Part shown: in pieces, positions 27,161 to 41,297 of the stretch
Numbering within the stretch: the stretch's first letter is position 1
Layout of the letters: each line of letters opens with the position of its first letter
The notes under the pieces: generated by a model
Databases searched by the model: none
Told to the model about the DNA's origin: nothing
The model's input: the letters and a program-made list of their open reading frames with translations, nothing else
Translations under genes and position numbers: made by a program
NCBI GenBank assembly: GCA_018645365.1
Contig: JABGOP010000016.1
Span: 1-41,438, forward strand
From: Candidatus Cloacimonadota bacterium
GTDB taxonomy: Bacteria > Cloacimonadota > Cloacimonadia > Cloacimonadales > TCS61
Direction: 5' to 3'
DNA length: 41,438 nt

Positions 27161-28093
27161 ATGGTAACGAAAGCTCAAAAATTTCGATTAGGAATTTTCA
27201 TTTTTACAACATCAATGTTACTAATTATTTTTCTCGTTTTGGTCGCGGGTAAAAAAATTATGGAAAAACGAGACACTTATTTTATTCGATATGAAAATAA
27301 GTCGGTAACAGGCTTACAAATTGGTGGTCCAGTAAAATATCATGGTATAAATATCGGCAGAGTTGATGAAATAAAAATTGAAAAAAATAATGTGGAAAAT
27401 ATCGTAGTTGCTATCGGAGTTAATGGCGGAACGCCAATCAAAACAGATGTTGAAGCTACTTTGGTGCCGATTGGAATAACGGGTCTTTTACAAATAGAAT
27501 TGATTGGTGGCTCGAACGAAGCAGATTTTTCCACACCGCATTCATTCATCAAAGCTGGTAATTCTACCTTTGAATTAATCACTGGCAAAGCAGAGATTAT
27601 TGCCACAAAATTGGAAATGTTACTCAATAATTTTGTTAATATAACTGACAATGAAAATCAGCAAAAGATAAAAAATATCTTGGCAAATGTAGATGAAATG
27701 GTCTCCGAAAACAAAAATGCAATCAACGAAATAATGCACAATGTGGACGATGCTTCCGACGATTTAGCCGCTTTGGCGAAAAACATCAACGAAAGTGCGG
27801 AAGAGATTAATCGATTATTGACTGACGGGAAAGTAGAAAAAATTATAACTAATTTAGATAAAACGACTTCCGAATTTGCCGAAGTGGATATGGCAAAATT
27901 ACTGAATAATGCGGATGAAACGGTGCGAAAATTGACCAAAACGATTGATGAAATTAGCTTTACCCACATTCGTAGTCGGCAAGATATTTTGGACATTATC
28001 GCCAATTTAGAAGAAACAGTTGAGTATTTGAACGAATTTTCGCGTCAAATAAATGAAGACCCAACTTTGTTGATTATCCCACGAAATAAATAG
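27161..28093 (+). CDS. mlaD: MCE-domain protein, MlaD-like
   Basis: MlaD-type proteins form a hexameric ring anchored in the inner membrane that binds lipid and hands it to or from an ABC transporter. The 310-aa protein has one N-terminal transmembrane helix (residues about 9-28), then a single MCE domain at about 38-115 with the hallmark VTGLQIGGPVKYHGINIGRV and PIGITGLLQIELIGG. A long helical, coiled-coil C-terminal part follows (about 150-310), rich in Asn/Asp/Glu. That tail is longer than in E. coli MlaD and resembles the needle-forming tails of larger MCE proteins. AAGGAG precedes the ATG. It heads a four-gene operon with the auxiliary lipoprotein, permease and ATPase. Confidence 0.93.
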   Translation: MVTKAQKFRLGIFIFTTSMLLIIFLVLVAGKKIMEKRDTYFIRYENKSVTGLQIGGPVKYHGINIGRVDEIKIEKNNVENIVVAIGVNGGTPIKTDVEATLVPIGITGLLQIELIGGSNEADFSTPHSFIKAGNSTFELITGKAEIIATKLEMLLNNFVNITDNENQQKIKNILANVDEMVSENKNAINEIMHNVDDASDDLAALAKNINESAEEINRLLTDGKVEKIITNLDKTTSEFAEVDMAKLLNNADETVRKLTKTIDEISFTHIRSRQDILDIIANLEETVEYLNEFSRQINEDPTLLIIPRNK

Positions 28094-28104
28094 AGGAAAA
28101 AGTT

Positions 28105-30135
28105 ATGAGAAAATTATTATTATTTGGAATTATTTTGTTAATTTTGGTCGGTTGTTCCACAAATGCGTTGCTGGAAAAGAATTATTACATTCTAGAAAAT
28201 TTGAGTCACATCAAAATGGATAAATTGCATCAGACTGAACCGATAGACGCATCTGTGCTTATTTTCGATGCATCTATTCCGCGTTCTTACAAGAAAAAAC
28301 AGATGGTCGTGCGTCATTTTGGTCCGCGTCTAACTTACACCAAAAATCATCTTTGGGCTGTTGATCTTTCCGAAACGATTCCAGATATTTTATTAAATAG
28401 ATTATTTGATTATAATGTTTTTCAAAGTGCGAAACGGGAATTTTGGCAAGAGCAACCGGAATATGAAATTTTGATGACAATCCATAACTTGGAACAAAAT
28501 ATAGCTTCAAATGCACTTCAAGCACGCCTAAATATTTCGTTTATTCTCAAAAAAAGTGAAACAGGTGAGCAAGTCGTTAAACACGAAATTGATGTAGAAA
28601 AATCCTTTTTTAACGAAAAATTTGACACATATATTCAAACAATAAATCAAATGTTGATAGAAGAATCAGACACGTTTATCCAAAAAATATTGGTTAACTT
28701 TGGAAAAATAGCACCTTCCAAAAATATTATCAAAAAAGAACAAAAAAATACGATAGAAAATGCAAATATCTCTATTGAAAAAGGGATTTTACTTTTTCCA
28801 GCTTTGACCAAAACGGAATTTGAAGAGTTTTATACAATTATCGATAGTAATGGCTACGAAATTGAAGAAGCTTCAAAAATTGGTGACGAGGTTGCTTTGA
28901 ATAAAGGTATTTATTCCATTAAATATGGTTCTGGTTCCAAGCAACAACAGATGACTCAAAAAAATATTGAGATAATCCCCCGTTATAAAACGATTATTGA
29001 ACCCGATTGGGGTTGCTTATCAGTGAATATCATCAACACAGAACGAAATTTCGTCAAAGTTAGATACGAATTATTTGACAACACGGGTTCGACTTTTGGT
29101 AGTTTATTTCCAGCCGAAACAGAGGTGGGGGAACACAATAAAATTTGGATTTTAAAGCCAGGTATTTACAAAATTACGGTGAATAACGAATCTTTCAATG
29201 CATACCAAGATTTCACAACTGTAAAAGTGGAAAAAGGGGAAGTGGCAGAGTTGACAATCGTGATGGATACGGATGAAAATGGAGACCCAACAAATTTAAT
29301 TGGAAGCGGCGTTTTGGAAAAGAATTTATTGAAGGGAACTTCTCAAAAAATGAGAATTAATAGTGCTATTCACGGAAATGTGAACTTTAATAGTGATAAT
29401 GAAAATACTGAAAATAACAGACAAGAATATTCGTTGGCTTTAAATGGACAGCTAGATAATCGTTTAATTTACCGAAATGGAATGTTCAACTATACTTTGA
29501 AACATTTGATGGAAATTGGTGTTACAAAAGAATATGATGACGATTTTCACTTAGCTACCGATAACTTTGATTTGAAAAATACGGGAATCATTTATTTTTT
29601 GAAAGATTTAGGGTTTTACGGTAGAATCGATTTGAATACACATCTTTTTGAAAAAAACGAGGCAGATTCTGATATGGAGGAAATTGTGATTGAACCGAGT
29701 TTTTTCCCATTAAAACTGAAAGAAGGTTTTGGAATTAACTATCGCATTTTGAAATCCTCGAAAGTTAATTTGAGCATTCGTGGTGGTTTGGGTTTCAGGC
29801 AAGATTTTAATGAGAATGTTTTGGAATGGACAGATTATTCTGATGGCTCATATAAATATGTTTCTAAGGAAACTACAATTGAAAAAGGGATAGAATTTTC
29901 TGCAGTTGGGAATTTTAGATTGCCTTTTAATCTGTCGTATTCAGTGAATGCGGATGTGCATTTCCCGTCTCAAGATTTCACAGAATTTACGATGGAATGG
30001 GAAAATATGTTCAATTTAAAATTGACGAAATTTGTATCATTAGACTATAAACTTAAATTAGCAAATGAAGATGGTTATGAAGATATTTTAACTAATCATA
30101 GTCTCTTTGTGAGAATTACATATTTTCTTAGGTAA
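28105..30135 (+). CDS. Auxiliary MCE lipoprotein fused to an outer-membrane beta barrel
   Basis: The 676-aa protein has a lipoprotein signal with lipobox LILVGC (Cys17). Residues about 20-200 resemble the ABC_trans_aux/PqiC family (DASVLIFDASIPRSYKKKQMV, LWAVDLSETIPDILLNRLF), the outer-membrane partner of MCE transporters. Residues about 220-400 look like two small beta-sandwich (PEGA-like) modules. Residues about 410-676 show amphipathic beta strands with alternating aromatics (for example IHGNVNFNS, YSLALNGQL, YGRIDLNTHL, LSYSVNADVHF) ending in FVRITYFLR, typical of an outer-membrane barrel. PqiC-like proteins normally stop near 190-220 aa, so this is an unusual fusion. GAGGAAAAAG precedes the ATG, 11 nt after mlaD. 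Confidence 0.8.
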   Translation: MRKLLLFGIILLILVGCSTNALLEKNYYILENLSHIKMDKLHQTEPIDASVLIFDASIPRSYKKKQMVVRHFGPRLTYTKNHLWAVDLSETIPDILLNRLFDYNVFQSAKREFWQEQPEYEILMTIHNLEQNIASNALQARLNISFILKKSETGEQVVKHEIDVEKSFFNEKFDTYIQTINQMLIEESDTFIQKILVNFGKIAPSKNIIKKEQKNTIENANISIEKGILLFPALTKTEFEEFYTIIDSNGYEIEEASKIGDEVALNKGIYSIKYGSGSKQQQMTQKNIEIIPRYKTIIEPDWGCLSVNIINTERNFVKVRYELFDNTGSTFGSLFPAETEVGEHNKIWILKPGIYKITVNNESFNAYQDFTTVKVEKGEVAELTIVMDTDENGDPTNLIGSGVLEKNLLKGTSQKMRINSAIHGNVNFNSDNENTENNRQEYSLALNGQLDNRLIYRNGMFNYTLKHLMEIGVTKEYDDDFHLATDNFDLKNTGIIYFLKDLGFYGRIDLNTHLFEKNEADSDMEEIVIEPSFFPLKLKEGFGINYRILKSSKVNLSIRGGLGFRQDFNENVLEWTDYSDGSYKYVSKETTIEKGIEFSAVGNFRLPFNLSYSVNADVHFPSQDFTEFTMEWENMFNLKLTKFVSLDYKLKLANEDGYEDILTNHSLFVRITYFLR

Positions 30136-30137
30136 CA

Positions 30138-31205
30138 ATGAGATACGAAGATAAAACACTATATTTAGAAGGTGCGTTAACTAAAGATACTATTGCCTTC
30201 AAATTGGAAAAATTATTATTGACTGAAGTTAGCAAAATTGACCTTGTCAAAATCAGCAAAATCGATAGTGCCGGAGTTGCTTTTCTTGATGAATTGAAAG
30301 ATAGATTTGATAATCCGAAAATAATAAATACTTCTGATGAAATTGTTCAAAGTATGCGGATATTTTCCCCTCAAATTTTACCAAAAACAGAAGAAAAAAT
30401 TAAAGAAAATATGTTTGTCAAAATTGGTGGATTAGTTGTTGATCACTTGGTTTCGGTCAAAAACGCATTCTACTTAATTGCAGATGTTTTTTATTGGTCT
30501 ATTTTTGGCATTTTCAATCGCAAAGGTCATCGTAAAGGCTCGGTGGTTCAACAAAGTATTTTAATCGGAATGGATGCAGTCTGGATTGTCGCGTTACTTT
30601 CGTTTATTTTGGGCTTGATTTTGGCATTACAAGCGGCGGCACAATTGCGTCAATTTGGAGCCAATATTTTTGTGGCAGATTTAATGGCACTTTCGATGGT
30701 TGTTGAAATGGGACCTTTTTTGACGGCGATAATTTTGGCTGGCAGAAGTGGCTCTGCGATAGCTTCCGAAATAGCCACAATGAAGGTGACAGAAGAGATT
30801 GATGCACTCAAAATGATGGCGATAAATCCGATTCGTTACATTGTGGTACCAAAATTTCATGCGATTACAATTTGCATTTCGTTACTTGTCATAATTTCCA
30901 CTTTAGTAGGGATTTTAGGCGGTTTAGTGGTGGCTGTAACCTATTTAGATTTAAGTCCCGTTGCCTTCTTAACTCGTGTTTTTGAAGTGGTTAAACTTAG
31001 AGATGCGTTGATTGCTTTGGGCAAAAGTTATTTCTTTGCGTGGATTATTGTGATAATCGGTAGCTACTATGGTTTTAGTGCGAAAGGTGGTGCAGAGGGA
31101 GTGGGGAAAGTTACCACAAAAGCAGTGGTTGCATCCATTTTTTGGGTGATTATCATTGATGCAATGAGTAGTTTGATTTTTTACTACAATGTGAAGTTGA
31201 TATGA
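30138..31205 (+). CDS. mlaE: MlaE-family permease with N-terminal STAS domain
   Basis: MlaE-type permeases form the membrane core of MCE lipid transporters. The 355-aa protein has an N-terminal STAS-like domain (residues about 1-75: strand, KIDLVKISKIDSAGVAFLDEL), corresponding to the separate MlaB subunit of E. coli. It is followed by five or six transmembrane helices with the family-typical SEIATMKVTEEIDALKMMAINP near residue 210 and PKFHAI just after. The fusion makes a separate mlaB unnecessary. It starts 2 nt after the lipoprotein gene and overlaps the ATPase gene by 4 nt (ATGA). Confidence 0.94.
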   Translation: MRYEDKTLYLEGALTKDTIAFKLEKLLLTEVSKIDLVKISKIDSAGVAFLDELKDRFDNPKIINTSDEIVQSMRIFSPQILPKTEEKIKENMFVKIGGLVVDHLVSVKNAFYLIADVFYWSIFGIFNRKGHRKGSVVQQSILIGMDAVWIVALLSFILGLILALQAAAQLRQFGANIFVADLMALSMVVEMGPFLTAIILAGRSGSAIASEIATMKVTEEIDALKMMAINPIRYIVVPKFHAITICISLLVIISTLVGILGGLVVAVTYLDLSPVAFLTRVFEVVKLRDALIALGKSYFFAWIIVIIGSYYGFSAKGGAEGVGKVTTKAVVASIFWVIIIDAMSSLIFYYNVKLI

Positions 31206-31954
31206 AAAAAAAAGTAAAAGAAGCAATAATATCCGTGCGTAATTTGACTGCAAAGTTTGGCGAAAAGACAATTTTGGAAAAGATAGATTTGGATATTTTT
31301 CCAGAAGAAATTACTGTCATTTTGGGAAATAGTGGTTGCGGAAAAACAACGTTCATCAAAAATATTTTGCGATTGTATCAACCGCATTCTGGCGAAATTA
31401 AAGTTTTTGGACGAGATGTTGCTCAAATTGAAGAAAGTGAATTTAATCAAATTTTACAGAAAATTGGCATGCTTTTCCAAAATGGTGCTTTACTAAATTC
31501 GATGAATGTTTTCGATAATATCGCAATTCCGCTCGAGCAGCACACAAATTTACCTAAATCGATTATCGAAAAAATGGTGAATGTGAAGTTGCAACTCGTA
31601 AATTTAGAAAATGTGCGTGAAATGATGCCAGCCGAACTTTCGGGAGGTATGAAGAAACGAGCTGCATTAGCGCGTTCGATTATTCTCGATCCTACTATTT
31701 TGGTTTGCGATGAACCATCAGCTGGGCTCGACCCAATTACAAGTGCCGCACTCGATGAGTTAATTTTAAATTTGCGGAAACTTTTAAAGATGACAATTGT
31801 GGTAGTAACACACGAATTAGCGAGTATTCATCGCATTGCAGATAGAATTATTTTCCTCGATGATGGCAAAATTTTATTTAGTGGAAATTTGGACGATGCC
31901 AAAAAATCAGAGATTGAAGCGGTGCAAAATTTCTTTGAAGTTGGTAGTTTTTGA
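31202..31954 (+). CDS. mlaF: MlaF-like ABC transporter ATPase
   Basis: The ATPase powers the MCE lipid transporter. The 250-aa protein has Walker A GNSGCGKTT near residue 41, a Q-loop (LFQNGALLNSMNVFDNI) typical of MlaF-type subunits, the ABC signature LSGGMKKRAALARSI near residue 145, Walker B ILVCDEPSAGLDP near 166 and the switch His in VVTHEL near 199. The MKKR following the signature motif is characteristic of the Mla/Ttg2 subfamily. Overlap with mlaE by 4 nt and with the next gene by one base shows a tight operon. Confidence 0.95.
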   Translation: MKKKVKEAIISVRNLTAKFGEKTILEKIDLDIFPEEITVILGNSGCGKTTFIKNILRLYQPHSGEIKVFGRDVAQIEESEFNQILQKIGMLFQNGALLNSMNVFDNIAIPLEQHTNLPKSIIEKMVNVKLQLVNLENVREMMPAELSGGMKKRAALARSIILDPTILVCDEPSAGLDPITSAALDELILNLRKLLKMTIVVVTHELASIHRIADRIIFLDDGKILFSGNLDDAKKSEIEAVQNFFEVGSF

Positions 31955-32421: not shown

Positions 32422-32542
32422 TTTCTTTCATTTTGGTAAGTTAGCAGATTTTTCTGAAATTATCTTAAAAAACTATTTGACAAATTTCATCATTTTCTGC
32501 TTCCGTTCCCTAAATCAATATTCAATAAAAATGGAGATTTTA

Positions 32543-33283
32543 ATGAAGAAAGTGTATTTTTTGTTTTTGTTTATTTTTTGTGTACTGATGCTTTTTGCCA
32601 CTTCAGAAATTACTTTCAAAGAGCCTATTTATGATTTTGGCGATGTCTATGAAAAAGATGGTCCTGTCGAGCACGAGTTTGAATTCACAAACACTGGTGA
32701 TGAACCGCTCGAACTAAAACGCGTTAAAGCGTCGTGAGGGTGCACCACACCCAGCTGGTCAGCTGGATTTATTCAACCCGGTGAAACAGGTGTTATCAAA
32801 GCAGCATACGATGTGAAAAATCGTCCCGGAAAATTCAATAAAAAAATTACAGTTACCTCAAATGCTTCCACGCCAATTTTGAAAATCCAGATTTCTGGAA
32901 ATGTGATTCCAATTCCTGGGATTTTTAGATATGAAGTAGGGGATTTCAAAGTAAAATCACAAAATGTCACTTTTAGAAAAATGCAGAATAACACCGTCAA
33001 AACCGTTAAAAGAGAGACACGAAATGATGGTGATAAACCAATTACGGTTAGTTTTGAAAATGTGCCAAGTTATATTACCTTAAATGCGGTTCCAGATACG
33101 TTGTTGCCGGGCACAAAAGGTAATATTGTGGCTGTTTATGATGCTAATAAAAATGCCAAGTTGAGATTTAATAATGACATCGTAATTATGGTGGTGGATG
33201 ATGGTGAAACAAAGCAGAGAGGTAAACTGAAAGTAAGTGCAACCATTTTGGCGACCAAGCCAAAGCTGAAAGGTAAAAAATAA
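32543..33283 (+). CDS. DUF1573 exported protein, predicted selenoprotein (Sec65)
   Basis: The ATG at 32543 (GGAG ten bases upstream) starts a signal peptide (KKVYFLFLFIFCVLMLFA) and a DUF1573 domain with YDFGDVYEKDGPVEHEFEFTN-like sequence. At codon 65 the frame meets TGA (32735-32737), then continues without break to a TAA at 33283. The context is VKAS-TGA-GCTTPSW, whereas DUF1573 proteins typically have SCGCTTP, so TGA stands where the first Cys of the Cys-Gly-Cys pair belongs. A strong hairpin with a GGUC loop follows 19 nt downstream (separate entry). Read through, the product is 246 aa with a full Ig-like domain and a C-terminal second domain. DUF1573 proteins are periplasmic Ig-like proteins of unclear function. 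A plain nonsense mutation is the alternative. Confidence 0.8.
32735..32766 (+). promoter_or_regulatory. Predicted bacterial SECIS: UGA codon plus GGUC-loop hairpin
   Basis: TGA (32735-32737) is followed after 19 nt by a GGUC tetraloop (32757-32760) closed by a perfect 6-bp stem, CCAGCT (32751-32756) with AGCTGG (32761-32766). The E. coli fdhF SECIS has the same GGUC loop 18 nt after its UGA, where it binds SelB. The hairpin lies inside the coding frame, as bacterial SECIS elements do. Whether a bulged base needed by some SelB proteins exists cannot be judged. Confidence 0.75.
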
Positions 33284-33575: not shown

Positions 33576-36500
33576 ATGAAAAAATTATTCTTAGTTTTAC
33601 TGGTTTTTGCGTTAGCTACGACACTCGTATTTGCTGATGCAAAAAAAATCGATCTTCTGGGTGATACTAAAACAGAAGTTGCCAAAACTTGGCAACCTAC
33701 TGTAACTCAGAAAGAAATGGAAGTTGCGCCGAACAGTGTGTTTAGTGCTGATAAGCGTCAGAACCTTCCAACACTGATAACGCCTACGCATATCAATGTT
33801 GGCAGAACTGAAGATTTTACGCTTGTTCTTACTGACTCTTATGGAGACGGTTGGGACGGTGCTTACATCCATGTTTATGTGAATGGCGCTGAGCTTTATG
33901 GCGGACACATTACCGTTGACGGTAGTGAGTATGTTGGTACGCTCGCTGTTGATAATGGCGATGTGGTAAGTACAGTTTATACTGCTGGCGCTTTCGAAAA
34001 TGAACATTCATACGCTTTCTACGATAATGCTGGTCAATTAGTTGCTTCTGATGGGCCTTCACCAGGTGCTGGTATTGAGTTTATCGTAGCAATTAGTGCT
34101 GATGTTTACGGTTGTACAGATCCAGAAGCTACAAATTACAATGCTGATGCAACAGTTGACGATGGTTCTTGTGTATATCCTTGTTTGGATACAGAAATCA
34201 CAAGAACATTTGTTGCTGGTTCATATGCATCTGAAACTTCTTGGACAGTTGTTGATGCTGGTGGTGTTGAAGTTGACGCTGGTGCTGGTGCTGTTGATGT
34301 AGATCCTACTATTCTTTGCCTTGCTGACGGTATTTATACTGTTAACATGGTTGACAGTTATGGTGATGGCTGGAACGGTTGTGTTATTAACTTTACAAAC
34401 CCTGAAGGTGCTGTAATTGGAACAGGTACGATTGCTTCTGGTGCAGAAGGCACTTTTGATTTTGAAGTTGGTGGTGTAGTTCCTGTGTTTGGTTGCACAG
34501 ACGAAACAGCTATCAATTACAATCCAGATGCAAATACAGATGACGGAAGTTGTTTCTACACTGGCGATACTTGCGAATACCCATTTGATGGTGTAATTGG
34601 CACAAACTCTTCTCTCGGTGGAGAGCAGTGGTTTGCAATTGATGTTGCTGTAGAAGGCTTCCTCGCGATTGACCTTCCTGAATACGAAGTTTTCCAAGTT
34701 GTGGGTGAATGTGGTACTGATGAAAGCGGTAACTTTATTGATTTCATTGGTGGCTTCTATCAAACTGGTGAAGTTTACATTGATACTGACCATATTGGTA
34801 CAGTTCATGTAAGAATTGCTGGTTGGTATGTTGCAGATCCAATGGATTTCACAATGGGTTGGACAGACGCAGTGTTTGGTTGCATGGACGAACTTGCTAA
34901 CAACTATAATGCAGGTGCCAATGTTGATGATGGCTCTTGTACTTATGATGCGTGTGAATACAATGAATTAACTGTTACTCTCGTTGACTCTTATGGCGAC
35001 GGTTGGGACAGTGCTTCACTTACAATCGGCGAATTGTCATTTACAGTTGCTGCTGGTGCAAGTGCAGAATATACTATTTGTCTCGAAGATGGTGCTTATC
35101 CCGTTACTTGTGGTGGCGGAAGTTATCCTGGTGAACATTCTTGGACTATTTACCAAGATACATTGTTAATTCTTGAAGGTGGAGATCCATTCGATGGTTT
35201 TTTCCTTTTAGGCGAAGGAATCCCTGGTTGTACAGATCCAGAAGCAGACAACTACGATCCAGAAGCAACGGTTGATGATGGTTCTTGTGCTTATATTCCA
35301 GATAATGACCTTTGCGAAAATGCTATCCTTATTGACACATTCCCTGCTGCTGGTTCTGGCACAACAATCGATGCTACTGTAGATTGTGCTGACCTTCTTG
35401 CTTGGAATGCGGTATGGTACACATTTGACCTTCCATATGAATCTAATCATGTAACATTCTCATTAATTGGTACTACCGCTACTTTAGATAATGGTGGCAT
35501 TGTTTTAATGAACGATTGTTTGTGTGATGATTACATTGCAAACGCTGGTTACACATTTGAAGCAGGTGTTCTTACTGTTGAATTTGCTGAACTTCCAGCA
35601 GGAACAATTTACTGGCCAGTAATGGCAGAAGCTGGTGGTTTTGAAATAGACTTCGACTATACTTTAAATGTTGTGGAAGAAGTTTATGGTTGTACAGATC
35701 CAGAAGCTTCTAACTATAATCCAGATGCTACTATCAACGACGATTCTTGCGAATATGCTTGTGATTTCACTCTCGTATTCTTTAATCTTGTAGATAGTTA
35801 TGGTGATGGTTGGAATGGTAATAATATTCTCTTCGGTGAAGATGTATTGACAGTTGCTAGTGGTACTGATGCTCAATTTATGTATTGTTTAGAAGATGGT
35901 GATTATACATATTCTTATGATTCAGCTGGTAGCTGGCAAACAGAGAATAGTTGGGAAATTGTAACAGATGCTGGCGTTGTACTCGGAATGGGTGCAGGTG
36001 GAACAGTGCCTGCTGACTATATATTCACAGTTGGTGGAGTGCCAGATGTTTATGGTTGTATGGACGAAACAGCTATCAATTATAATCCTGAAGCAACTAT
36101 CGATGATGGCTCTTGTCTTTATGCCGGTGATACTTGTGAATCAGCATTTGATGGTGGCGTTATCAACGGTGATGCAATTGTTGCTGCCACTACTGTTGAA
36201 TATGATGTTGACTGGTATTCATTCGTATTAGATGCAGATTACGATGTGGTTACAGTTTCTCTTTGTGGCTCAGCTTTCGACACAAAACTCGAAGTTTGGG
36301 ATGCTTGTGATGCAGAAACTTACATTGGTTATAATGATGACTCTGCTGCTTGTGATGGTCGTGCATTACAATCTCAAGTTGACCTTGCTAATCTTGTAGC
36401 TGGAACTTATTACGCAAAAGTTTATGGTTATACTACTAGTTTTGGTGAGTATACTTTAAATATTACTGGAAGTTCTGCTCCAACAGCTCCGCTTCTTACA

Positions 36501-39500
36501 GCGACTGGTGGTCCAGTAGAAGTAGCTCTCGAATGGGCTCCAGTTCCAACAGTTCCTGTTGTTAGAGCTGCTGATTTAGCACATTTCGACAAAACTGCTG
36601 AATTGAAAAAAGAAGCTTATTTACAAAGAAGACGCGAAAATATGCCGGCTATTCAAATGCCAGCTACTTTCGTTAATAATACAAGAACTGAAGATTTCAC
36701 ACTTGTTTTGACTGACGCTTATGGAGACGGTTGGGACGGTGCTTACATGCATGTTTATGTGAATAGTGTTGAGCTTTACGGCGGACACATCACATGTGAT
36801 GGTGGAGAAGGAATCTTTACACTTGCAGTTGATAATGGTGATTTAGTAGAAGCTGTTTACACTGCTGGTTCTTATGAAAGCGAGCATTCATACGCGTTCT
36901 ACGATCAAGCTGGAAACTTCATTATTGGTGACGGCCCCACACCTGGTGCTGGCGTCAATTTCACAGTTGAAATTTCTTATGATGTAGAAGGTTGTACAGA
37001 TGAAACAGCTCTTAATTACAATCCAGATGCAACTATTGATGATGGAAGTTGCTGCTATACTAACTACCTCTTAACAGAAGTAGGTGGTGGAAGTTATCCA
37101 GGTGAAGTATCTTGGGAAATATTGGATACTGAATCTAATATACTCTTCGCTGGTGCTGCTCCATACGCAGATTACCTTTGCTTAGCAGATGGTAATTATG
37201 TACTTCACGCAATCGATTCTTACGGTGATGGTTGGAATGGTAATATGTTCACTATTACAGGCGACGAAGGTGTTGTGTTTAGTTATAGTCTTACAGAAGG
37301 CGCAGACGCTTTAGTTGACTTTGAAATTGGTGGAGAAGTTCCAGTTTATGGTTGCACAGATGAAACAGCTCTTAACTACAATCCAGATGCAAATACTGAT
37401 GATGGTTCTTGCTACTGGGTAGGCGATGTTTGTGATGCTCCAATCGCTGTTGTAGAAGGAATTTATTCAGCAACTGGTGCTGAACAATGGTATGAATTTA
37501 CTCCTACTATAGACCAAATGGTTACAATCTCTTCAGATGGAACTACAGAAGATACATATCTTGTGGTTTATGAAGATTGTGCTTGGACTTTCGTAGCGGG
37601 TAACGATGACATTGCTGGTGACAATTATGCTTCAGCAGCAACATTTGTTGGTTATGCTGGTGTACCATACAAAATCTTGTGGGCTCCACAATACTCACCA
37701 GGACCATTTGATTTTGCAGTTTCTACATCAGAATACATAGCAGCTCCTGCGAATGATCTTTGCGAAGATGCACAATTTGTTGGTGTTGTAGATCAAGGCG
37801 TAGCAATCGATGGTACAACACTCGGTGCTACAGAAGATTGTATTGATGTAGGTTGGAATGGTGTATGGTATGAAATTGAATTACCATATGACTTTAACAA
37901 TCTTACAATCTCTTTAACTTCAACAGAACTTTTGGATAATGGTGCAATTCTTCTTGAGCAAGATTGTACATGCGACCTTCCAATTTACAGTTCTGGTTAT
38001 GAGTGGCCAGGTGGCGGTGTTGATTACACATACAGCGTATGGTTCAACGAATTAGTTGGTGGCACAATATTGTTCCCAGCTCAAATCGCTCCAGCAGCTG
38101 ATTTCCAAATTACATTTACAGTTGAAGAAGCTTATGTTCCTTCATTTGATGTTTATAAAGAAGGTCCATTCGGTTATGCATTGTTGTTAGATGATGTTAA
38201 CGAACTTTCTTATGTAGATTATGATGTTGTAGCTGGTGTGGAAGAATGCTATTATGTAGTTCAAAATTTAGAAGACGGTTCATTGTCTGATGATTCTGAA
38301 ATTGCATGTGCTGTTCCACTTGATGCAGTATTTGGCAATCCACCTCGTAGTTTAACTGCACTTCCTGGTGATACTTGGGTTGATCTTGCTTGGGCAGCTC
38401 CACTTAACCCAGCTACTGAATTTGTTGGCTATGATGATGGTGAAAATTTCACAGCAATCGGTACAGGTGGCGGTTCATTCTACGCTTGTATTAAATGGGG
38501 TGCTGGTGAACTTGCAGCTTACGATGGACAGTACATCACAGATGTATCTTTCTTCTTAGGTGAAGAAGCTGCAACAGCTATAATTGAAGCAGTTGTATTT
38601 GTTGATGGTGAATTAGTAGTTTCAACACCATGCGAAATTGTTCCTAACGATTGGAATACAATTGGTCTTGGTGAAGTTGTTCTTATTAACGCAGCTTCAG
38701 AAATTGCAGTTGGTATTCACAGTGCAGGCGGTAATTACAATGCTGGCGCTGATGCTGGTCCTGCTGTAGCTCCAGGATTTAGTGATCTTGTATCATACGA
38801 TGGTGCTGAATGGATTTCAATGGCAACTGAATATGGTTTAGATTATAACTGGAATTGCAAAGCTGGTATCACAGATTATGCAGTGAGAGGCGTTGCAACT
38901 AAGACAATCTTTGTAGAAAAAGATTATTTAGGAAAAAATACAGATACAGTTATGCAAGGTGCTATAAACGAAGCTGGTCATAAATTCGTTCATAACACAA
39001 ACGCAATGCGTGATTTCTTGCATTACAATGTATCTCGTGATGGTTTGTTCATTGATACAACAACAGAACTTGTTTATCAAGATAGTGGGCTTCCAATGGA
39101 AGTTGAATTCTGTTACACAGTTAGTGCTGAGTACACAGAAGGTACTTCTGCTCAAACAAATGTAGCGTGCGCAATACCTTGTATTTATGGTTGTACAGAT
39201 CCAGAGGCAGATAACTTTGATCCAGAAGCAGTTTGTGATGATGGTTCTTGTACTTACATTGGTGATTCTTGTGATAATCCATACGTAGCAGTACTCGGTT
39301 TGAACGAAGGCACAATCGGTGGAACTTGGTTCGAATTCACACCAGAAGCTGATGGACTCTATTATGTTTCTTCATTAGACAATGGTGCTTGTGTTGATAC
39401 ACAAGTTGAAATTTGGGATGCCTGTGATGCTGAAACTTACATTGCATTCGGTGATGATGAGAGTGGATCTCCATGTTGGGAATCTTATGCAGAATGGACA

Positions 39501-41297
39501 GCTGTAGCAGGTCATACTTACTACATGCACTGGACAGGTTTTTGGAATGATGTAGATCCTTTCAATTGGACGCTTGGTTTGGCTGAATTCCCAGAAATGA
39601 CAATTAGTGCTACTGAACTTATTCAGACAGGTGCTGGTGACCAAGTTCTTACAATTGGTAACATTGGTAATGCTGACCTTGCATTCGAAGCTACTCTTGC
39701 TTACGATTATGGTAGAAGAGAAGTTGTTTTCTCTGAAAACTTTGAAGGTGGAGTACTTCCAGAAGGTTGGACAGAATCTACAAACGCAATGGCTGGTTGG
39801 ATCATTACAGAAGATGGTTCAAGTTCATATTGGGCAGTCCCAGTTGGTGATGGATTCTACGCTTGTGCTAACGATGATGCGGGTGGCAGTGGTTCTGATG
39901 GTAGTGTAGATTACCTTGTTACACCACTTATCGATCTTGCTGGTTATCCAGTTGCTTCATTGACATTTGATAGCTTCTTTACAGCAGCTTACAGTCAAGT
40001 GGCTACAGTTGAAGTCAGTACAGATGGTGTTAACTTTGATGTTGTTAGTACTCTCGAAGGTGGAGCAGATTGGGCAACTACAACAGTTGACCTTACTGCT
40101 TATGTTGATCAAGCAATCTATGTAGCATTCCACGCTGATGATAGTGGTGCTTGGGCTTCAGGTTGGGCTGTAGATAATGTAGTTATAGATGGTATTTCAG
40201 AATCATTTAGCTGGTTATCAATTGCTCCAACATCTGGTACAGTTGTTCCAGAAGCTACTGTTGATATGGCAGTTACTTTCGATGCAACTGATTTAGCAGA
40301 TGGAACTTACCTTGCTGAGATCTCAATCGTTACAAACGATGTAGATGTAGTTGTTCCTGTAACTTTCGTTGTTGAAACTGTTGCAGTTCCAACGATTGAT
40401 GTAGATGTAACATCAATTACACAAGCAGGTAACGGCGATGCAATCTTCAATATTTCTAATGTTGGAGAAGAAGGTTCAGTTCTTAACTATGCAATCACAT
40501 CAGGTTACACAATGTTAAGTTCAATTCCTCAAATTAAGTCAATGGACAGAGATAGAACACCACATCCAGTTTACGCTAATGTATTGTGTTATGTGCCAGC
40601 TGTGAGAGAAGAGTGGTTAACGATTACTCCAATTTCTGGTGATGTAGCTTATGGCGTATCAGATGCAATTACAGTAAGCTTTGATGGTACTGATCTTGTA
40701 GCAGGATTCTATACAGCAAATATCGTAGTTACTAGTGATGGTGGCGACGATGTAGTAATTCCTGTAGAATTCACTGTAGAGGGTGGAATTGATGTTTATC
40801 CAGAAGCTATTACATTCGAAGCTTGGATTTTAGAGCGTCCAGACGAAGTACTCACAGAAACATCAACCGGTTGTGGTTATGGCGATCCACTTGCTGCACC
40901 GGGAATGTTGGTAGTTCAAGTTGGTACTTTTGAATCACAATGGGATGCAGGTGAAACATTACACATCCGCGTTCAAGAAGTAGCAACTGGAAACATTGCT
41001 AACGCAGAAATTGTATTAACTTATGATGGCTTCCAAATGATGGATGACATTATGGTTTCTCCACTTCCACCGGTAGCTCCTGTGAATATTACAATTGATG
41101 TATCCGCATCAGTAACTCCAGGGCGTGTAATTCGTGTAATTGGTTGGGAAGCTTCAGCAACAGCAACATCATATACTGTTTACGATTGTGATACTGTGAA
41201 TGGACCATGGGAAGTTGTTTATGAAGGTACTGAAACTAGCTTTACTACAGAAGGTTCTTCTTCAGTGAAATTCTACAGAGTAACAGCGAGCAACTAA
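33576..41297 (+). CDS. Giant secreted multi-repeat protein (YGDGW and DDGSC modules)
   Basis: From ATG 33576 (AAAGGAG upstream) this encodes about 2,573 aa with a clear signal peptide (KKLFLVLLVFALATTLVFA). It holds nine copies of a 22-24-residue cysteine motif, GC[TM]D-x-x-A-x-NYN-x-[DE]A-x-x-DDGSC, near 34107, 34487, 34877, 35222, 35686, 36052, 36991, 37348 and 39187. Six copies of a beta-sandwich module with D[SA]YGDGW lie near 33836, 34350, 34984, 35790, 36712 and 37217. Later parts include pre-peptidase-like domains, fibronectin-III-like segments, a cleaved-adhesin/choice-of-anchor-J-like domain (about 39720-40200) and Ig-like repeats with WL[ST]I-P-SG. It ends in a fibronectin-like segment with no recognisable type IX sorting tail. 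Probably an adhesin or surface-layer component; function unknown. Confidence 0.9.
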   Translation: MKKLFLVLLVFALATTLVFADAKKIDLLGDTKTEVAKTWQPTVTQKEMEVAPNSVFSADKRQNLPTLITPTHINVGRTEDFTLVLTDSYGDGWDGAYIHVYVNGAELYGGHITVDGSEYVGTLAVDNGDVVSTVYTAGAFENEHSYAFYDNAGQLVASDGPSPGAGIEFIVAISADVYGCTDPEATNYNADATVDDGSCVYPCLDTEITRTFVAGSYASETSWTVVDAGGVEVDAGAGAVDVDPTILCLADGIYTVNMVDSYGDGWNGCVINFTNPEGAVIGTGTIASGAEGTFDFEVGGVVPVFGCTDETAINYNPDANTDDGSCFYTGDTCEYPFDGVIGTNSSLGGEQWFAIDVAVEGFLAIDLPEYEVFQVVGECGTDESGNFIDFIGGFYQTGEVYIDTDHIGTVHVRIAGWYVADPMDFTMGWTDAVFGCMDELANNYNAGANVDDGSCTYDACEYNELTVTLVDSYGDGWDSASLTIGELSFTVAAGASAEYTICLEDGAYPVTCGGGSYPGEHSWTIYQDTLLILEGGDPFDGFFLLGEGIPGCTDPEADNYDPEATVDDGSCAYIPDNDLCENAILIDTFPAAGSGTTIDATVDCADLLAWNAVWYTFDLPYESNHVTFSLIGTTATLDNGGIVLMNDCLCDDYIANAGYTFEAGVLTVEFAELPAGTIYWPVMAEAGGFEIDFDYTLNVVEEVYGCTDPEASNYNPDATINDDSCEYACDFTLVFFNLVDSYGDGWNGNNILFGEDVLTVASGTDAQFMYCLEDGDYTYSYDSAGSWQTENSWEIVTDAGVVLGMGAGGTVPADYIFTVGGVPDVYGCMDETAINYNPEATIDDGSCLYAGDTCESAFDGGVINGDAIVAATTVEYDVDWYSFVLDADYDVVTVSLCGSAFDTKLEVWDACDAETYIGYNDDSAACDGRALQSQVDLANLVAGTYYAKVYGYTTSFGEYTLNITGSSAPTAPLLTATGGPVEVALEWAPVPTVPVVRAADLAHFDKTAELKKEAYLQRRRENMPAIQMPATFVNNTRTEDFTLVLTDAYGDGWDGAYMHVYVNSVELYGGHITCDGGEGIFTLAVDNGDLVEAVYTAGSYESEHSYAFYDQAGNFIIGDGPTPGAGVNFTVEISYDVEGCTDETALNYNPDATIDDGSCCYTNYLLTEVGGGSYPGEVSWEILDTESNILFAGAAPYADYLCLADGNYVLHAIDSYGDGWNGNMFTITGDEGVVFSYSLTEGADALVDFEIGGEVPVYGCTDETALNYNPDANTDDGSCYWVGDVCDAPIAVVEGIYSATGAEQWYEFTPTIDQMVTISSDGTTEDTYLVVYEDCAWTFVAGNDDIAGDNYASAATFVGYAGVPYKILWAPQYSPGPFDFAVSTSEYIAAPANDLCEDAQFVGVVDQGVAIDGTTLGATEDCIDVGWNGVWYEIELPYDFNNLTISLTSTELLDNGAILLEQDCTCDLPIYSSGYEWPGGGVDYTYSVWFNELVGGTILFPAQIAPAADFQITFTVEEAYVPSFDVYKEGPFGYALLLDDVNELSYVDYDVVAGVEECYYVVQNLEDGSLSDDSEIACAVPLDAVFGNPPRSLTALPGDTWVDLAWAAPLNPATEFVGYDDGENFTAIGTGGGSFYACIKWGAGELAAYDGQYITDVSFFLGEEAATAIIEAVVFVDGELVVSTPCEIVPNDWNTIGLGEVVLINAASEIAVGIHSAGGNYNAGADAGPAVAPGFSDLVSYDGAEWISMATEYGLDYNWNCKAGITDYAVRGVATKTIFVEKDYLGKNTDTVMQGAINEAGHKFVHNTNAMRDFLHYNVSRDGLFIDTTTELVYQDSGLPMEVEFCYTVSAEYTEGTSAQTNVACAIPCIYGCTDPEADNFDPEAVCDDGSCTYIGDSCDNPYVAVLGLNEGTIGGTWFEFTPEADGLYYVSSLDNGACVDTQVEIWDACDAETYIAFGDDESGSPCWESYAEWTAVAGHTYYMHWTGFWNDVDPFNWTLGLAEFPEMTISATELIQTGAGDQVLTIGNIGNADLAFEATLAYDYGRREVVFSENFEGGVLPEGWTESTNAMAGWIITEDGSSSYWAVPVGDGFYACANDDAGGSGSDGSVDYLVTPLIDLAGYPVASLTFDSFFTAAYSQVATVEVSTDGVNFDVVSTLEGGADWATTTVDLTAYVDQAIYVAFHADDSGAWASGWAVDNVVIDGISESFSWLSIAPTSGTVVPEATVDMAVTFDATDLADGTYLAEISIVTNDVDVVVPVTFVVETVAVPTIDVDVTSITQAGNGDAIFNISNVGEEGSVLNYAITSGYTMLSSIPQIKSMDRDRTPHPVYANVLCYVPAVREEWLTITPISGDVAYGVSDAITVSFDGTDLVAGFYTANIVVTSDGGDDVVIPVEFTVEGGIDVYPEAITFEAWILERPDEVLTETSTGCGYGDPLAAPGMLVVQVGTFESQWDAGETLHIRVQEVATGNIANAEIVLTYDGFQMMDDIMVSPLPPVAPVNITIDVSASVTPGRVIRVIGWEASATATSYTVYDCDTVNGPWEVVYEGTETSFTTEGSSSVKFYRVTASN
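33786..34179 (+). repeat. Large internal duplication in the giant gene, copy 1
   Basis: This segment encodes RTEDFTLVLTDSYGDGWDG through a DDGSC motif. Its closest relative is copy 2 at 36682-37056, and the two align over about 130 residues with long identical stretches (GDGWDGAY, HVYVN, ELYGGHIT, EHSYAFYD). The other YGDGW modules in the gene are much more divergent. Confidence 0.8.
36682..37056 (+). repeat. Large internal duplication in the giant gene, copy 2
   Basis: This is the second copy of the 130-residue unit starting RTEDFTLVLTD. It is preceded by a stretch (about 36590-36680) resembling the post-signal-peptide region of the protein, including a basic segment EAYLQRRRENMPAIQMPATF. 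This suggests that the whole N-terminal unit was copied inwards. Confidence 0.8.

Follow-up and report, generated by a model that had tools for sequence, protein, structure and literature searches.

A UGA-containing DUF1573 gene in Cloacimonadota: evidence for selenocysteine decoding and a recurring association with rhodanese

A contig of 41,438 nucleotides from a Candidatus Cloacimonadota bacterium (JABGOP010000016.1, assembly GCA_018645365.1), analysed here as a whole and referred to as the window, carries a DUF1573 gene whose reading frame passes through an in-frame TGA. The locus raises the question of whether this UGA is a sense codon for selenocysteine (Sec) and, if it is, what role the resulting protein might have outside the cytoplasm. 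A preliminary description made from the sequence alone had proposed a selenoprotein whose Sec replaces the first Cys of the family's CGC motif, and had pointed to a hairpin just downstream. In this study, we examine the conservation of the codon and of the hairpin across the phylum, the Sec machinery of the genomes concerned, the known relatives of the protein, and the genes and domains that accompany it. The data indicate that UGA 65 is very probably a sense codon decoded as selenocysteine, and point to rhodanese as a recurring companion of the Sec-containing domain. The features of the locus are collected in Table 1.

Table 1. Features of the Sec-DUF1573 locus, in window coordinates
Feature	Position	Strand	Basis or remark
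Ribosome site GGAG	32533-32536	+	Upstream of ATG 32543
Sec-containing DUF1573 coding sequence, 246 residues, U65	32543-33283	+	ATG start, TAA at 33281-33283; homology through the TGA, 29 genomes
Predicted N-terminal hydrophobic export signal, residues 1-20	32543-32602	+	MKKVYFLFLFIFCVLMLFAT; helix 2-16 in the model
PF07610 (DUF1573) domain with Ig-like fold, residues 23-121	32609-32905	+	PF07610 match; AlphaFold2; Foldseek
UGA, probably read as Sec (U65)	32735-32737	+	TGA in 33/33 top DUF1573 domains of the phylum; same column where aligned
C67 codon; C67 is the proposed resolving Cys in U-G-C	32741-32743	+	Invariant in 22 aligned proteins
Predicted bacterial SECIS hairpin, 6-bp stem	32751-32766 (GGUC loop 32757-32760)	+	Covariation; frozen synonymous codons; absent from Cys homologs
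Second Ig-like domain, more diverged and lacking U-G-C	32930-33250	+	Second DUF1573 stretch; model strands 130-236
Giant exported surface-type protein, about 2570 aa, 63 Cys	33576-41297	+	Directly downstream; nine paired-Cys CTDxxAxNYNxxAxxDDGSC repeats

Conservation of the UGA codon and of the downstream hairpin

The frame across the TGA translates as ...RVKAS-U65-G-C67-TTPSWS..., which aligns U65 with the first Cys of the DUF1573 CGC motif. A PF07610 match spans the codon (139.1 bits against the Pfam curated cut-off of 26.1, residues 23-121) and, together with the translation, confirms that the TGA lies within a DUF1573 frame, as the preliminary description had stated. Gene callers that take the TGA as a stop would cut the gene into two.

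The window protein and the Pfam model served as queries in a search of 123-125 genomes of the phylum. The 33 top-scoring DUF1573 domains, found in 29 genomes, all carry TGA, and the codon occupies the same column in every extracted copy and in 22 fully aligned proteins, usually in the context A-[SG]-U-G-C-T. None of the aligned phylum copies of these domains has Cys at that column. Among the matches listed, the domains that lack TGA are lower-scoring ones, being either second Ig repeats of the same proteins or parts of giant proteins. Residues also invariant in the 22 aligned proteins are G33, F48, N50, G52, V61, G66, T68, S73, G83, N93, R94, K100 and G119; these include no His, and no Cys other than that of the U-G-C motif. 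Tandem duplicates of the gene occur at four loci (L059, L063, L074, L083), with the UGA kept in every copy.

In other named lineages, 11 more distant DUF1573 domains read CGCT, with Cys at this column. Such Cys-type proteins, from genomes labelled Bacteroidetes, Phycisphaerales and Thermoanaerobaculia, share the PF07610 domain and have C-G-C-T in the same place, but they carry Cys instead of Sec, and the GGTC hairpin is absent from the 11 Cys homologs.

The hairpin CCAGCT-GGTC-AGCTGG lies exactly where it had been reported, with its stem starting 13 nt and its GGTC 19 nt after the TGA, and neither strand of the window has another 6-bp hairpin with a GGTC loop. Across 31 distinct aligned copies, pairing holds in 94% of stem cells, and four stem pairs have been altered on both sides (A-U to G-C, U-A to C-G, U-A to A-U and C-G to U-A). 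The covariation score of these copies was matched by none of 500 shuffles, and it collapses once the pairing is slid. The GGUC loop is invariant, even in three copies where a Trp codon (TGG) has become Arg (AGG). In 24 coding sequences, the hairpin codons for S-W-S-T are frozen (Ser AGT in 19/21, Ser TCA in 23/24, Thr ACT in 19/22) and the remaining codon choices within the hairpin are exact compensations; well-conserved codons outside it generally vary at synonymous positions. This freezing of synonymous codons implies selection at the level of RNA. When folded singly, the hairpin is not unusual against shuffles (z about -1.4 or weaker). The Rfam model SECIS_1 (RF00031) matched nothing in this genome, a null result that is uninformative because none of 14 control genomes gave a match either. 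Judged by the alignments, the predicted hairpin is a SECIS element under RNA-level selection, for which the comparative evidence is decisive and single-sequence folding is not.

Selenocysteine machinery and the reading of the codon

The source genome (1.79 Mb, 59 contigs, 96.9% complete) encodes a tRNA-Sec (57.6 bits against the Rfam cut-off of 47; TCA anticodon by ARAGORN) that adjoins a full-length selB on contig 30, together with selA (440.8 bits), selD (357 bits) and selU/MnmH. The four genes for which the preliminary description had advised a search, selA, selB, selC and selD, are thus all present. The selD gene (L054, G000:C31:7181-8104) itself contains an in-frame TGA, in the context KAAG-U-AGK and followed by a hairpin, and is of the Sec type. 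Because all of these components are encoded, selenium use is beyond doubt, and the genome is, by its gene content, able to make and insert Sec. Among the 29 genomes with Sec-DUF1573, selA was found in 25 and a full-length selB in three of the other four, the last genome being 61% complete. Co-occurrence of selA with Sec-DUF1573 (25/29 against 35/94 genomes) is significant by Fisher's test at p 4e-6 with kinship ignored. A relative assembled as a single contig and 99% complete (G048) has neither selA, nor a selB over the cut-off, nor a UGA-type DUF1573.

Two explanations would leave the codon without Sec. The TGA could go undecoded, as a sequencing error, a pseudogene or a regulated truncation, and a 64-residue truncated product is conceivable under selenium shortage; moreover, in one relative (L052, G012:C114:450-1133) the copy contains a further in-frame TGA and its frame is in pieces, by decay or assembly error. 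Against this stand the retention of both the TGA column and the downstream protein in 29 genomes, the covariation of the hairpin and the frozen codons. A miscalled TGC or TGT, which had been allowed for at the outset, is untenable with the same TGA in 29 genomes, and the random decay that homologs might have displayed at this column was not found, every aligned copy having its TGA there. Loss of decoding is accordingly very improbable. Even less credible is a genome-wide reassignment of UGA, to Trp as in code 4 or to Gly as in code 25, which has the in-frame TGA itself and nothing more in its favour. Frames of 1990 and 2588 aa stay open in the window under the standard code, no component of the Sec machinery is missing, and selB, selA and the other reference genes found in the genome are free of in-frame TGA, with the one exception of selD, a known selenoprotein. 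The selenoprotein first proposed, in which Sec takes the place of the first CGC Cys, is the reading favoured by the TGA in 33/33 top domains, the covarying hairpin and the frozen codons.

Predicted fold and known relatives

The AlphaFold2 model of the window protein (mean pLDDT 91.5) comprises two Ig-like domains, with U65, modelled as Cys, in the loop joining strands 56-63 and 68-72. Foldseek relates the protein to Ig domains of the HYDIN/CEP192 type at low TM-scores of 0.3-0.4, and since these matches are generic, no function can be read from the fold. A sequence search of the PDB with the window protein as the sole query gave no significant match. The solved but uncharacterised Porphyromonas gingivalis protein 2QSV contains an Ig-like pair that resembles the second and third domains; its sequence match covers profile positions 133-349, leaving the U-G-C-bearing domain outside.

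The preliminary description had not counted DUF1573 among the described selenoprotein families, and on this point it was mistaken. A DUF1573 selenoprotein is listed as OS_HP2 (pfam07610, UxC) in PMC2398784 (2008), "DUF1573 ... UGC" stands in tables of two further papers, PMC9312934 and PMC13188914, each with reference to Zhang and Gladyshev 2007, and NCBIfam holds a model for the OS_HP2 (seleno)protein, NF041425. The relevant passages of these papers deal with the Olavius algarvensis symbiont and with ocean sequences; neither a rhodanese fusion nor a giant surface neighbour is mentioned there. OS_HP2 likewise has Sec in place of the first CGC Cys of its DUF1573 domain, and all 22 aligned proteins match its model (best E 8.7e-35). 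The window protein is of the same kind, which has been listed since 2007-2008; its score of 73.5 bits falls below the curated cut-off of 100, and it is therefore filed as a Sec-type PF07610 protein outside the OS_HP2 subfamily. The evidence given above extends a bare table entry (DUF1573, UGC) to a phylum-wide selenoprotein that is well supported and whose SECIS covaries. In the literature searched, we found no description of its fusion or adjacency to rhodanese, or of its frequent giant secreted neighbour.

Rhodanese association, gene neighbourhood and proposed function

Most relatives are longer, with a third Ig/ASH domain followed at the C terminus by a rhodanese that has a catalytic-type Cys (YCKSGxRS), and PF00581 matches 17 of the 21 aligned proteins. 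At L068, L073 and L078, which belong to another family of the class, the gene immediately after Sec-DUF1573 encodes the rhodanese. A profile search of the window protein found no C-terminal PF00581 domain; elsewhere in the source genome, an exported double-rhodanese of 282 aa (L127:979-1827) could be its stand-alone partner. The catalytic Cys has been lost in two tandem paralogs (one each at L059 and L063), which implies that sulfur transfer is not obligatory in all copies. TsoB, a rhodanese/DsbD fusion-like selenoprotein (NF045694), likewise unites Sec chemistry with a rhodanese domain, but its model is matched weakly and by the rhodanese part of the relatives alone, and by name it is not a DUF1573 protein. 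Of the observations made here, the recurring rhodanese is the first to give a concrete hint at the role of the CGC/UGC motif in DUF1573, and suggests extracytoplasmic thiol or sulfur chemistry.

Of some 24 loci with sufficient sequence, about 16 encode a large exported protein next downstream on the same strand, in a count that disregards very short frames. A type IX sorting domain is present in three of the four giant neighbours that were checked, the window's copy being without one, and the CTDxxAxNYNxxAxxDDGSC repeats were found, among the neighbouring giants, in the window's copy alone. Members of the giant-neighbour cluster have repeats and tails in common and no one clear orthologous body, so the link between Sec-DUF1573 and a giant protein is suggestive only. 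Their Cys content differs widely, and a specific redox partnership deduced from that content was dropped as inconsistent. The giant neighbour in L070 gives a partial match, far under the cut-off, to a model of the anammox S-layer glycoprotein.

From the fused or adjacent rhodanese and the giant exported neighbour, we infer that the window protein acts in thiol/selenol redox chemistry outside the cytoplasm, in conjunction with sulfane sulfur. SelB and tRNA-Sec very probably recognise the GGUC-loop SECIS 13 nt after the UGA and insert Sec at the first position of U-G-C. Outside the cytoplasm, the U65 selenol would attack a disulfide, persulfide or peroxide-type substrate, and C67 would then resolve the U65 intermediate as a Se-S bond, the resolved state of the U-G-C pair; we regard this attack and resolution as nearly an even call. 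In the relatives, the C-terminal rhodanese Cys would pass on or remove sulfane sulfur, a step that the separate exported double-rhodanese could take over in the source genome. More tentatively, the phylum may possess an undescribed extracytoplasmic selenol-persulfide module, made up of Sec-DUF1573 and a rhodanese in the same protein or the adjacent gene, in many cases with a giant secreted surface protein encoded after them. Such a module would act on surface-layer proteins, handling sulfane sulfur or else forming and isomerising disulfides. It is quite doubtful that the client is the giant surface protein encoded next door.

The main rival to a redox role accepts that Sec is real. Soft metals can be bound by U-x-C and C-x-C pairs, and U65 with C67 could form a site for Cu, Hg, Cd or Zn in an exported metal-binding or chaperone protein that is not a redox enzyme. 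Several metal-related selenoproteins appear in the same review tables as DUF1573. However, the partner linked to the gene is a rhodanese, which is associated with sulfur transfer, and no metal transporter or sensor, and the invariant residues offer neither His nor a further Cys. We consider a soft-metal site unlikely, and the thiol/selenol redox role remains the preferred reading.

Upstream of the gene, the window also encodes an SprA-like protein of 1990 aa (PF14349; 21125-27097), a component of type IX secretion and motility, and, just upstream of Sec-DUF1573, an operon of MlaD, an auxiliary protein, MlaE and an ATPase (27161-31954). In a genome from another family of the class (G111, L058), the Sec-DUF1573 gene and the same Mla operon are about 5 kb apart.
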